From Actinomycetes bacterium (lineage in GTDB: Bacteria > Actinomycetota > Acidimicrobiia > Acidimicrobiales > Palsa-688), in contig JAJYMB010000031.1 in the NCBI GenBank assembly GCA_021787365.1, forward strand, positions 1-64,000: a stretch of DNA of 64,000 nt, read 5' to 3'. Both the position numbers and the translations under genes were made by a program. Numbering within the stretch: position 1 is the first letter of the stretch; every line of letters begins with the position of its first letter. The notes under the pieces are model-generated. The model did no database searches, had not been told where the DNA came from, and saw nothing but the letters and a program-made list of their open reading frames with translations. This document shows, one piece after another, positions 15,895-61,939 of this stretch.

Positions 15895-17931
15895 TCAGCG
15901 CCGGCCGGCTCGGCTCCGCCCGCCGGCGCCCCCCGCATCGCCGGCACGTTTCGCCCCGCCAGCACGTTTCGCCCCGCCGGCACCCCCCGCATCGCCGGCG
16001 CCCCCGGCATCGCCGGCGCCCTTCGCCTCGCCGGCACCGCGCAGCAACTCCTCTGCATGCTCCCACGCAGCTTTGCTGTGGGGGTGGCCCGAGAGCATCC
16101 GTGACAGCTCGACCACCCTGTCCTCCCCTGCCACCTGCACCGCGTCCGTGACCGCGCGCCCCGCCCGCTCTGACTTGCTCACGGCCACCTGGGCGCCGGC
16201 AAAGGCAGCCACTTGGGCCAGGTGCGTGACCACTACCACCTGGTAGCGCCGCCCCAGTTCGGCGAGCGCTCTCCCCACGGCGAGCGCCGCTTCGCCTCCG
16301 ATGCCGGCGTCGACCTCATCGAAAACGAGTGTCTCGGGGCCTGCGACGCTCTCTCTCGCCGTCGGCACGCCAGCGCTTGCGCCGGCAGCCAGCAAGACCA
16401 GGCGTAACGCAAGCATGGCGCGAGCCAGCTCCCCGCCCGACGCCACCTTGGCCAGCGCCAGCAACGGCTCCCCCGGGTTAGCGGCGAAATAGAAGCACAC
16501 CTCTTCTCCCGAAAGCTCCCTCAGCTCGCCTGAAATTTCCCGCAAGCCCTCCCGGGCCTCCCGGCCCTGCTGGTCCTCCCGGGCCTCCCGGCCCTGCGGA
16601 ACGGCCTGCACCGCGCTGGAAGCATCGTCTCGCCGCACCCCACTCTCCGCGCCCTCGCCCCACAGCCGGCCGGCGTTGGCGCTGCCCGCACCGACGCGCA
16701 CCTCGAAGCGCGCTTTCGGCATGGCGAGCCGGCGCATCTCGGCCTCGACCGCGCGACCGAGCTTCGTCGCGGCCGCCCTCCGAGCCACCCCCAGTTCTTC
16801 GGAAGCCCGCCGCAACTCTGCCAGTGCGCCGGCGTGCTCGCCGGCCAACCGGCGGGCCTCGCCGGCCAGGTCCTCCAGTACTTGGAGGCGCACCCGAGCG
16901 GCGGTTTGCCACTCCAACACGGCTGCCAGGGTTCCGGGCAGCGCGTTGCGCCCTGGCTCGCGCGACGCAGTTGCGCCCCCGTCGCCGCCCAGGCGAGACG
17001 CACCTGCACCAGGACCGTCACCCGAGAGGGGCTTCGCTCCGTACTTCCGCCGCAGCTCGTGCAAAAGGGCGCGGCGCGACATCACCTCGGCCAACCGCTC
17101 CGGGTCGTCTTCGAGCGACTCGGCCAGGGCGCGGGCCTCGCCGGCGGCGTCCGAAAGTTCCGCGGCCAGGCCACGAAGCCGTTCGTACAGCCCGGCGAGA
17201 GGAACCCGCCCCGACAGGCGGCTCAAGACCTCGCCCAGCCGGTCCACGACCTGGTCCTCCCCGGCCAGAACTTCCTGCACAGCTACTGCGGCTGCCCGGT
17301 GCTCCGAGGCGCGAGCGAGCGATTCCTCTTCTGCGGCGAGCTCGTCGTCTTCCGACGCGCTGGTGAGCTTCGCCGCCTCCAGCTCGGTTAGCTGGTACTC
17401 GAGCAGCTCGATCTCCCTCTGGCGTGCCTCGGCGCTGCCGCCGGCGCCGGCCAACGCCGCTTCCAACTGGCGCACCCTCTCGCGCGCCGCGTCCCGGCGG
17501 GAACGGTCCACGCCGGCGTACAAGTCCAGCGCGTCCCGCTGGGACCCGGCGGAGAGCAACGATTGGTGTGCGTGCTGGCCATGCAGGTCGACCAGGCCCG
17601 CACCCAGTTCGGCGAGAGCGCCGGCCGCTGCCATGCGGCCGTCCACATAGGCGCGCGAGCGCCCGTCCCGGGGCACGACCCGGCTCAAAACCAGCTCTTG
17701 TTCCCCGCCAGTCCCGTCGGAAAGGACGAAGCGCCCCTCGACGACAGCCTCGGCAGCCCCCGGGCGCACGAGCACGGGGTCGGCCCGCCCCCCGAGCAGA
17801 AGCTCGACGGCTTCCACGACGAGCGTCTTGCCGGCGCCCGTCTCGCCGGTCAGCGCTGTCATGCCGGGCCCGAAGACCAATGAGAGGTCCTCGATAACCC
17901 CCAACTCTTTGACCCTGAGCTCGCTCAGCAC
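15895..17931 (-). CDS. recN: DNA repair protein RecN with low-complexity insert and Ala/Gly-rich C-terminal tail
   Basis: MLSELRVKELGVIEDLSLVFGPGMTALTGETGAGKTLVVEAVELLLGGRAD; LAKVASGGELARAMLALRLVL; TLVFDEVDAGIGGEAA. Confidence 0.95.
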   Translation of the reverse strand: MLSELRVKELGVIEDLSLVFGPGMTALTGETGAGKTLVVEAVELLLGGRADPVLVRPGAAEAVVEGRFVLSDGTGGEQELVLSRVVPRDGRSRAYVDGRMAAAGALAELGAGLVDLHGQHAHQSLLSAGSQRDALDLYAGVDRSRRDAARERVRQLEAALAGAGGSAEARQREIELLEYQLTELEAAKLTSASEDDELAAEEESLARASEHRAAAVAVQEVLAGEDQVVDRLGEVLSRLSGRVPLAGLYERLRGLAAELSDAAGEARALAESLEDDPERLAEVMSRRALLHELRRKYGAKPLSGDGPGAGASRLGGDGGATASREPGRNALPGTLAAVLEWQTAARVRLQVLEDLAGEARRLAGEHAGALAELRRASEELGVARRAAATKLGRAVEAEMRRLAMPKARFEVRVGAGSANAGRLWGEGAESGVRRDDASSAVQAVPQGREAREDQQGREAREGLREISGELRELSGEEVCFYFAANPGEPLLALAKVASGGELARAMLALRLVLLAAGASAGVPTARESVAGPETLVFDEVDAGIGGEAALAVGRALAELGRRYQVVVVTHLAQVAAFAGAQVAVSKSERAGRAVTDAVQVAGEDRVVELSRMLSGHPHSKAAWEHAEELLRGAGEAKGAGDAGGAGDAGGAGGAKRAGGAKRAGDAGGAGGRSRAGRR

Positions 17932-21213: not shown

Positions 21214-21227
21214 CCTCGCCCACGCGC

Positions 21228-21300
21228 GGGCATCATCGCCCGGCGGCGGGCATCATCGCCCCGGCTGCGGGCATCATCGCCCCGGCTGCGGGCATCATGG
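21228..21300. repeat. Four tandem copies of ~20-21 bp unit (gggcatcatcgccccggctgc)
   Basis: gggcatcat at 21228, 21248, 21269, 21290. Confidence 0.95.
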
Positions 21301-21315
21301 CAACGCACGCGCGCC

Positions 21316-21425
21316 AAAAGCTCACCGATGTGCTGGCGCCAGGCGCACATCATCCGGAAACGTGACCGTTTCCGGCCCAAAAACCTACCGATGTGCGGTT
21401 TGGGATTTCAGATCCGTCAGAAAAC
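21316..21425. repeat. Intergenic nested inverted-repeat element, copy 1 (related to 60812-60916)
   Basis: ctcaccGATGTGC-tggcgccaggc-GCACATC; CCGGAAACG-tgac-CGTTTCCGG; cctaccgatgtgc...gatccgtcag; collinear with copy 2. Confidence 0.7.
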
Positions 21426-45418: not shown

Positions 45419-46107
45419 CGTTTGTTCACAATCTCCTGCTCCCACCGCTGCAGACTTTCGTGTAGCAGAATGGCATAGTAACCAGAAATCACGAATTGGC
45501 CATTCGCGACCCTTTGCGCTAGTGTAACTCGCCAAGCTTTCGGCCCCGTACCTTTTGCTGTGTGTCCCACTACTCTGTCGGAAGCGTCGAGGTATGGCTC
45601 CGTGACTTGTCTTACTACGACGTCCACAGCTCCGCTCGTGTACGCACGTCTGTGACCGACTGACAACACATTCCCGTGTTTTCCATGAAGTAGGATCGGT
45701 TTTTCTGTGACAACCAAGAAGTCGATCTGGGTTGGCGTTGGAGGCAGATGCCAACCACGCTTCTTCATTTGTGCCATTAAGTACTTTTGCGCAGCGAAGA
45801 TATCCGATGACGGTGCAGCGTAATTTATCACTAAGTTGGGATTAGGGTGGCTGCCAACCCAATCTGAATACCTGGTCAGGGTAAGAAACGCCGTCTTCAT
45901 GTTCGGGCTGTAGGCGCCGGCGAGGCTCGGCGGGTACGGCTTAGCCGCCGGCCAGGTCGCCGGCTTGCCCCCACCCATGACCGTCGTGGTCGTGGTCGCG
46001 TTTGCCGGCGGCTTGGTTGAACGGTGCGTCGTGCCGGCCAGTGCGCCTTGGCCGCCCGTAACGAGTAACAGGGACACCATAAGTAGCGCTATCAGAGATC
46101 GTCTCAT
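45415..46107 (-). CDS. Secreted protein of unknown function in the Tad operon
   Basis: Signal peptide MRRSLIALLMVSLLLVTGGQGALAG; no recognised domain. Confidence 0.78.
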   Translation of the reverse strand: MRRSLIALLMVSLLLVTGGQGALAGTTHRSTKPPANATTTTTVMGGGKPATWPAAKPYPPSLAGAYSPNMKTAFLTLTRYSDWVGSHPNPNLVINYAAPSSDIFAAQKYLMAQMKKRGWHLPPTPTQIDFLVVTEKPILLHGKHGNVLSVGHRRAYTSGAVDVVVRQVTEPYLDASDRVVGHTAKGTGPKAWRVTLAQRVANGQFVISGYYAILLHESLQRWEQEIVNKR

Positions 46108-60681: not shown

Positions 60682-60694
60682 GAGATGTAGGCGG

Positions 60695-60811
60695 CGGCAG
60701 CCACTGAGGGGCCGCGCCGCGGCACGAACTGTGGGCGCCGGCAGCTACGAGGGCCCGAGCCGCGGCACGAACTGTGGGCGCCGGCAGCTACGAGGGCCCG
60801 CGCCGCGGCAC
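60695..60811. repeat. ~2.7 copies of a 43-bp tandem repeat (ccggcagctacgagggcccgagccgcggcacgaactgtgggcg)
   Basis: Units starting at ~60695 (degenerate), 60738, 60781. Confidence 0.95.
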
Positions 60812-60916
60812 GAAACTGACGGATGTAGTTGCGCCAAGGTCACATTCGTCAGAATCATGGGTAATTTTTGGCCTTGAAACTGACGGATGTGGCGTTCCCG
60901 GATTTGCATCGGCCAG
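60812..60916. repeat. Intergenic nested inverted-repeat element, copy 2 (related to 21316-21425)
   Basis: CTGACGGATGT (60816) ... ACATTCGTCAG (60842) ... CTGACGGATGT (60880) ... gcatcggccagtt. Confidence 0.75.
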
Positions 60917-61024
60917 TTCCCGGGCGGGTCTGTGGCCGGGGCGACCCGCCGGGCGCTCACTGGCGGGGTCGCTCACCACCGGCGGAGCGGCTCATTGGTA
61001 GCGCCGCTCACTTTTCCTGGCCGC

Positions 61025-61939
61025 TCACTGGACAAGCACGACCGCCGGCTTGGCCTCCTCACCCCCGCGGCGCTCGTACACCGCGAGGAGGTCCCCGCCC
61101 TCGCTCAACACGGCCCAGGGGCCGCCACCCCGGGCGCCGGCAGCCTCCAGGACCTCCCGCGCCAGGACCTTCCCGTGCGCCACCGCGCCCGCCAGCTCAC
61201 CTCCGACCACCGCCCGTGCCATGCCCGGCAAGGCCCCCGCCGGCGCCAGCACGTAGCGGGACACGAGCTCTTCCGGACCGGCCTCGAGCGTGCCCAGGCT
61301 GACGGCGTCCTCCAAGGAGAAGGGCCCCACCGAGACCCGGCGCAACCGGCGCAGGTGCGCCCCGCCCCCAAGAAGCGCACCCAGGTCCGCAGCCAGGCTC
61401 CGCACGTAGGTGCCCGAGGAACACTCCACATCGATGGCGAGGACGGGCCCGTTGTCGCCGGCGCCGGCCAACTCGACGTCAAAGCGAGCCACGGTGACGG
61501 CCCGGGGTGCCCGCTCCACCTCCACTCCGGCCCGGGCGAGCTCGTGCAGGCGCCGGCCCCCCACCTTCAAGGCGGAGACCATCGGGGGGACCTGGGTTAT
61601 CTCGCCCGTCAGCCGGCCGGCGGCAGAGCGAGCTGCTTCCACGGTCACACCACGCATGTCCCAGGACTCTGTGACCTCGCCCGAGGCGTCGAGGGTCGTC
61701 GTAGCGACACCCAGCACGACTTCGGCCGTGTACCTCTTGGGTAGACCGGTGAGCCACCTGAGCAACCTCGTCACCTGCCCGAGACCGACAAGTAGGACGC
61801 CGGTGGCATCAGGGTCAAGGGTGCCCGCGTGGCCGACCTTGCGCTGGCCGAAGATCCGCCGGCACCGGTCGACCACGTCGTGACTGGTACACCCGGCTGG
61901 CTTGTCCACGACCAGGAGGCCGTCGGTCCGAGGGGCCAC
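61025..61939 (-). CDS. truB: tRNA pseudouridine(55) synthase
   Basis: DGLLVVDKPAGCTSHDVVDRCRRIFGQRKVGHAGTLDPDATGVLLVGLGQVTRLL. Confidence 0.97.
   Translation of the reverse strand: MAPRTDGLLVVDKPAGCTSHDVVDRCRRIFGQRKVGHAGTLDPDATGVLLVGLGQVTRLLRWLTGLPKRYTAEVVLGVATTTLDASGEVTESWDMRGVTVEAARSAAGRLTGEITQVPPMVSALKVGGRRLHELARAGVEVERAPRAVTVARFDVELAGAGDNGPVLAIDVECSSGTYVRSLAADLGALLGGGAHLRRLRRVSVGPFSLEDAVSLGTLEAGPEELVSRYVLAPAGALPGMARAVVGGELAGAVAHGKVLAREVLEAAGARGGGPWAVLSEGGDLLAVYERRGGEEAKPAVVLVQ

Follow-up and report, generated by a model that had tools for sequence, protein, structure and literature searches.

Two copies of one intergenic element

What kind of element is the intergenic pair of inverted repeats that begins near position 21,316 of this stretch of DNA and recurs, with its arms in the same order, near position 60,812? 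The window, i.e. the whole stretch of 64,000 nucleotides that was analysed, is part of contig C34 of a 4.56-Mb draft genome (G000) of an acidimicrobial bacterium, which belongs to an uncultured lineage of Acidimicrobiaceae type. Dispersed palindromic repeats of bacteria have mostly been read as transposon debris or as RNA hairpins, and both readings had been put forward for this locus in an earlier note, which proposed a dispersed or MITE-like element, possibly made of transposon ends, or else a structured RNA.

The features of the two copies are listed in Table 1. From A-tract to last arm, copy 1 covers 21316-21420 and copy 2 covers 60813-60916. Both have the order L1-R1-middle-L2-R2, with arms resembling CTGACCGATGTG and 13 nt inside each arm pair; the middle segment is 26 nt long in copy 1 and 27 nt long in copy 2. 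The two collinear copies with their GATGT-type arms, as well as the additional perfect hairpin of copy 1, have the sequence and the position that the earlier note had given for them. The TTTTT that usually follows R2 in the family alignment has been lost in copy 1. Short tandem-repeat arrays with 21-bp and 43-bp units (21226-21298 and 60686-60814) directly adjoin both copies; tandem repeats were also seen beside several other copies of the family, and such arrays are abundant in the intergenic regions of this genome.

Table 1. Positions of the two copies in the window, their arms and their neighbouring genes
Feature	Position	Strand or orientation	Basis
Copy 1, whole element	21311..21425	+	profile match 21316-21420, E=7e-20
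Copy 1, left A-tract	21316..21319	+	sequence; column conserved across family
Copy 1, arm L1, CTCACCGATGTG	21321..21332	+	sequence, family alignment
Copy 1, arm R1, CACATCATCCGG	21346..21357	-	sequence; starts exactly 13 nt past L1
Copy 1, perfect 9-bp central hairpin, CCGGAAACG-tgac-CGTTTCCGG	21354..21375	.	sequence
Copy 1, arm L2, CCTACCGATGTG	21384..21395	+	sequence, family alignment
Copy 1, arm R2, CAGATCCGTCAG	21409..21420	-	sequence, family alignment; exactly 13 nt past L2
Copy 1, neighbours: HAD hydrolase gene (+), FkbM methyltransferase gene (-)		convergent	Pfam
Copy 2, whole element	60809..60925	+	profile match 60813-60920, E=7e-21
Copy 2, arm L1, CTGACGGATGTA	60816..60827	+	sequence
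Copy 2, arm R1, CACATTCGTCAG	60841..60852	-	sequence
Copy 2, arm L2, CTGACGGATGTG	60880..60891	+	sequence
Copy 2, arm R2, TGCATCGGCCAG	60905..60916	-	sequence
Copy 2, neighbours: EF-G-like gene (+, ends 60681), truB-like gene (-, 61025-61939)		convergent	ORFs; names read from translations

A family of constant geometry

Within the window, the evidence for a repeat family was modest: when as many as 3 mismatches were allowed, AAACTGACGGATGT had 7 matches against 1.75 expected, and a shorter 11-mer arm motif occurred at chance level. Genome-wide, the arm pattern MTGRCSGATGT had 57 matches against 14 for the reversed control, and the bipartite half-site AAAACN6ATGTG had 50 matches, 47 of them inside elements, against none in the control. 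A third AAAACN6ATGTG site of the window (45667-45682) was inspected and is not an element. A profile was built from 15 hand-picked and aligned elements using sequence only, so that no structure was imposed. Search of the genome with this profile yielded 6 partial and at least 61 full-length copies, the latter a lower bound as 150 of 1,089 candidates were scored; most of the full-length copies had E-values between 4e-26 and 2e-11. The two window copies were in the training set of the profile, most of the 61 copies were outside it. The description as a dispersed repeat was thus correct, and the resemblance between the two window copies is not due to chance. The earlier note had named the lack of further copies, together with the lack of covariation, as the outcome that would reduce the resemblance to chance; further copies exist, and the covariation, which is indeed absent (see below), counts only against the RNA reading.

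The length of the element, approximately 105-112 bp, is strikingly constant across the family, and so is its anatomy: an A-tract, N6, ATGTG, exactly 13 nt, CACAT, 26-27 nt, and then the block again. Each element thus consists of two near-identical palindromic blocks (A-tract - N6 - ATGTG - 13 nt - CACAT - N6 - A/T-tract), whose centres are 63-64 bp, or about six helical turns, apart. Loop 1 was 13 nt long in all 57 scored copies and loop 2 in 56 of the 57, while the middle segment was 26 or 27 nt. The spacing is equal in the two main subfamilies, A (consensus GCGCGCAAAAACTGACCGATGTG..TGCGCGTTTTCGCGCC..GTTTTTTGCGCG) and B (consensus CAGAACTGGTGGACGTGG..TTTTTTCTCCC..CACGTTCACCAGTTCC). Around three copies of subfamily B (L064, L065 and L054) similarity runs at least 60 bp past both element ends, i.e. 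these copies are contained in a larger repeat. According to a home-made gene caller essentially all copies lie between genes, the single copy in a predicted ORF being in one that is possibly spurious. Some contigs end in or beside elements (L078 and L094 at the ends of C77 and C53 of G000; L150 and L325 in the related genome G001). The G001 copy in L140 bridges both G000 contig ends, which suggests that C77 and C53 adjoin.

Inheritance in place and the search for a transposon

The element was present in 4 of 61 genomes: its own, two others of the same genus (G001 and G002), and G025, a member of a different genus. The DNA around the single G025 copy (L174, contig C25) is approximately 91% identical to the G000 locus L059, which makes binning contamination the probable source. 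A second profile, built from G002 copies, raised the G002 count to about 27 and found nothing beyond the same G025 copy in the other genomes of the family that were searched. The element family is genus-specific.

G001 is a sister species whose coding DNA is about 91% identical. Of its 40 loci with copies, approximately 35 have flanks matching those of G000 copies, and the same holds for eight copies of G002. This number of orthologous copies indicates that the elements are old. G001 has copy 1 and G002 lacks it, and the copy 2 locus of G002 carries a very diverged copy with an unchanged layout. No recognisable copy was found at L066 in G002 or at L089 in G001 either, so that, with the copy 1 locus of G002, at least three orthologous sites are without one and no single site is indispensable. 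The family is old and has been inherited mostly vertically, with some gain or loss, and the differences in presence between the species may reflect past mobility. At one locus two elements lie approximately 1.4 kb apart in all three species (L075, L147, L173). In the ortholog pairs L057/L125 and L037/L099 the elements are identical or nearly so, while in one flank L125 matches L057 at just 88% identity; this pattern may be the result of recombination, or of a chimeric or cross-binned contig.

A full insertion sequence with the termini of the element, as the transposon-end proposal would have it, was not found among the five loci of rve-type (IS481/IS3-class) transposases of the genome: neither an element nor a half-site was present at their ends. 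The Y1 transposase domain (Y1_Tnp, PF01797) had no match in the genome, which is 91% complete, while 5 of 14 control genomes were positive. A blastn search of the element against phages and plasmids gave no match. The loop-2 motif RATGTGCGGYTAACGAYTTCAC had no exact match in 85,000 genomes and viral contigs, a search in which the pattern was too strict for G001 and G002 and from which the own and near genomes were possibly absent. Clean empty sites were not found at orthologous loci lacking a copy, the intergenic DNA being too diverged to locate a junction at which target-site duplications would show. With some 35 copies at orthologous positions, no rve transposase bearing such ends and no Y1 match in the genome, the idea of MITE-like transposon ends did not hold up as a current mechanism, and a recent transposon is disfavoured.

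Conservation of length and of A/T tracts

Thirty G000-G001 ortholog pairs were used to compare the element with the next 8-60 bp outside it; the G001 orthologs had been located by the profile, which may favour well-kept copies. Substitutions amounted to 0.128 in the element and 0.199 in the adjacent flank, and indels to 2.8 and 45 per kb, respectively, so that the indel/substitution ratio was 0.021 in the element versus 0.226 in the flank (Fisher p=5e-19). With stricter gap costs the ratios were 0.021 and 0.097, with laxer ones 0.069 and 0.514. The direction is therefore robust to the gap penalty, with a ratio 4.6 to 11 times lower in the element (p 1.5e-6 to 3e-28), and at all gap costs tried the indel rate per base was 9- to 16-fold below that of the neighbouring intergenic DNA. 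The indel profile has sharp edges, which coincide with both ends of the element. Among substitutions, the ATGTG cores changed at a rate of 0.03-0.09, as compared with 0.12-0.18 for the outer arms, the loops and the segment after R1. A/T sites changed at approximately 0.05-0.14 inside the element versus 0.24-0.27 outside, whereas G/C sites outside the cores (0.15) were near the flank rate (0.165). The A/T tracts and the TGTG cores are thus conserved inside the element.

These rates bear on the possibility that the family is a decaying MITE, that is, an old, non-autonomous and now immobile transposon with terminal inverted repeats of approximately 25 bp, which drifts neutrally and owes its geometry to its ancestor. 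Dispersed intergenic copies, terminal inverted repeats of the form GCGCG-AAAAAC..GTTTTT-CGCGC, two main subfamilies and presence/absence differences between species would all fit such an origin. Neutral relics, however, should show neither a deficit of indels nor cores and A/T tracts that stay while G/C sites drift, and both were observed; nor do the transposase and the phage and plasmid searches described above provide a carrier of these ends. We consider neutral decay of a MITE unlikely.

Base pairing is not conserved

If the element acted as a structured RNA or as a bidirectional intrinsic terminator, the transcript would form L1/R1 and L2/R2 hairpins or one long rod, with outer U-tracts (AAAAA..TTTTT in the DNA). 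The nested inverted repeats and the A5/T5 tracts at the outer ends are compatible with this, and RNA folding was better than for shuffled sequences (z=-5.6 for copy 2, z=-2.9 for copy 1), as expected for any inverted repeat. The placement of copies is suggestive in the same direction: among the approximately 54 full-length copies with both neighbours known, 20 were convergent, about 27 tandem and 8 divergent by home-made gene calls, compared with 7 convergent, 37 tandem and 6 divergent gene pairs in the window (n=50). Convergent gaps are therefore enriched, but the copies between divergent genes do not fit a terminator.

The pairing itself was not maintained. Within subfamilies, pairing of the arms (L1:R1, L2:R2, L1:R2, R1:L2) did not exceed that of permuted data; the signal that appears in the full copy set stems from the split between A and B. 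Double changes between orthologs, scored for four alternative helices, kept pairing in 8 cases and gained or lost it in 15, and no excess of compensatory changes was found between the orthologs. In G002 none of the four helices showed more outer-arm pairing than permuted data. An unbiased scan for coupled columns returned mostly adjacent columns and subfamily differences, and no helix; adjacent columns within arms R1, L2 and R2 were strongly coupled (e.g. CA/TG/GG in R1). The central hairpin of copy 1, which in the G001 ortholog reads CCAGAAATA-tgac-CATTTCTGG with two compensated pairs and one broken, speaks for an RNA and is a local exception to the lack of pairing constraint. A search of the window and seven loci against Rfam gave no match. 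A terminator scan made no call at either window copy; as it admits loops of 3-8 only, loops of 13 nt escape its detection. Given the lack of covariation and the unpaired outer arms of G002, a conserved RNA hairpin is unlikely, and we regard the RNA or terminator reading, the second proposal of the earlier note, as quite improbable.

The same observations apply to a REPIN- or BIME-type element that owes its copies to an undetected, domesticated transposase of the single-strand (HUH) type. Two palindromic units in an intergenic element of about 100 bp, present in tens of copies per genome, are reminiscent of such elements, and long vertical inheritance has been described for REPINs (PMC8049555). 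On the other side, besides the missing Y1_Tnp domain and the unconserved hairpin pairing, a conserved tag of the GTAG or CGTC kind was not seen at the foot of the hairpin when the 61-copy alignment was inspected; the arms begin with CTG(A/G) after the A-tract. The chances of this alternative appear very small.

Helical phasing

What is conserved, in place of pairing, is length and helical phase. The per-column A+T content is mirror-symmetric about the element centre (r=0.86 in G000, 0.89 in G002). A 10.5-bp period dominates in G000 and, more strongly still, in G002 (block-shuffle p<0.0005), with peaks near 0, +-11, +-21, +-41 and +-52; the ladder of A/T peaks is broken at -31 by the GC-rich loop 1. 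In single copies the mean 10.5-bp power was 3.9 versus 1.1 in the flanks, although in copy 2 alone the strongest A+T signal lay at a period of 13 instead of 10.5. Gyrase sites have a 130-bp motif in which A+T and G+C alternate with a helical repeat of 10.75 bp (PMC6379681). The A+T profile of the element was also run along phage Mu, for which the gyrase cut is annotated at 17879-17880: it gave a peak 5 bp from this cut (z 2.8-3.0, rank 44-78 of 36,600), at most a suggestive match, and was out of phase (negative) at the cut itself.

A candidate site for a DNA-wrapping protein

Fixed length combined with inheritance in place is expected of a DNA site that is bound or wrapped by protein, and not of an RNA hairpin or of a freshly jumping element. 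We therefore favour, with somewhat better than even confidence, the interpretation that the family is a dispersed, helically phased candidate protein-binding or DNA-wrapping site of approximately 105-112 bp, specific to the genus. The protein, probably acting as a dimer on each block or as an oligomer spanning the two, would bind the TGTG/CACA cores and bend or wrap the phased DNA. Selection on the protein-DNA complex would hold the spacing, leaving the loops and the arm hexamers to drift. By analogy with BIMEs and strong gyrase sites, the use might be in chromosome organisation or in supercoil management at gene ends. The present copies probably arose through ancestral copying, which has since slowed down or come to an end.

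A more specific version, which we put forward only tentatively, is that the element is a dedicated chromosome-organising site of this genus: a nucleoid or topology protein particular to the lineage would wrap four half-sites held in fixed helical phase, at 61 or more intergenic places, and selection would keep these sites for their geometry and not for their sequence or pairing. To our knowledge, little is known about the nucleoid of Acidimicrobiia. If the binding protein were found, the family would represent, for this group, a new class of site for DNA wrapping or topology that is present in many copies. The family can be traced at orthologous positions across three species and allows the transposon-debris and the RNA-hairpin readings to be separated.

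Comparison with known systems

ERIC/IRU (127 bp) and the Correia/NEMIS elements (PMC2229807) are, like the present element, small, palindromic and intergenic and occur in tens of copies, and the Correia element binds IHF in vitro (PMC2229807). They come from other taxa, and their sequences are unrelated to it. For ERIC, terminal repeats of 7 bp and target duplications are described (PMC2229807), which were not seen here, and we know of no description of four phased half-sites at fixed spacing for ERIC/Correia-type repeats. REPIN/REP elements with their RAYT are similar in having two palindromic units per element, in being intergenic, in numbering tens of copies and in persisting vertically. 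REP palindromes, however, are 20-40 bp long with a GTAG/CGTC-type tag at one foot (PMC3733652); the units of our element are 37 bp with 13-nt loops, and they differ further in the absence of a detectable Y1 transposase and GTAG/CGTC foot and in stem pairing that is not maintained.

BIME-2 and the strong gyrase sites of E. coli and phage Mu (PMC6379681) resemble the element in being intergenic, about 110-130 bp long, symmetric and present in many copies per genome. The two also share phasing by the helical repeat, with an A+T/G+C alternation of 10.75 bp in the gyrase motif (PMC6379681) and of 10.5 bp in the element. The likeness is one of sequence pattern; the phase at the element centre does not match the gyrase cut in Mu. 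Moreover, specific TGTG cores and spacers of fixed length are retained in the elements described here, in contrast to the highly degenerate gyrase motif.
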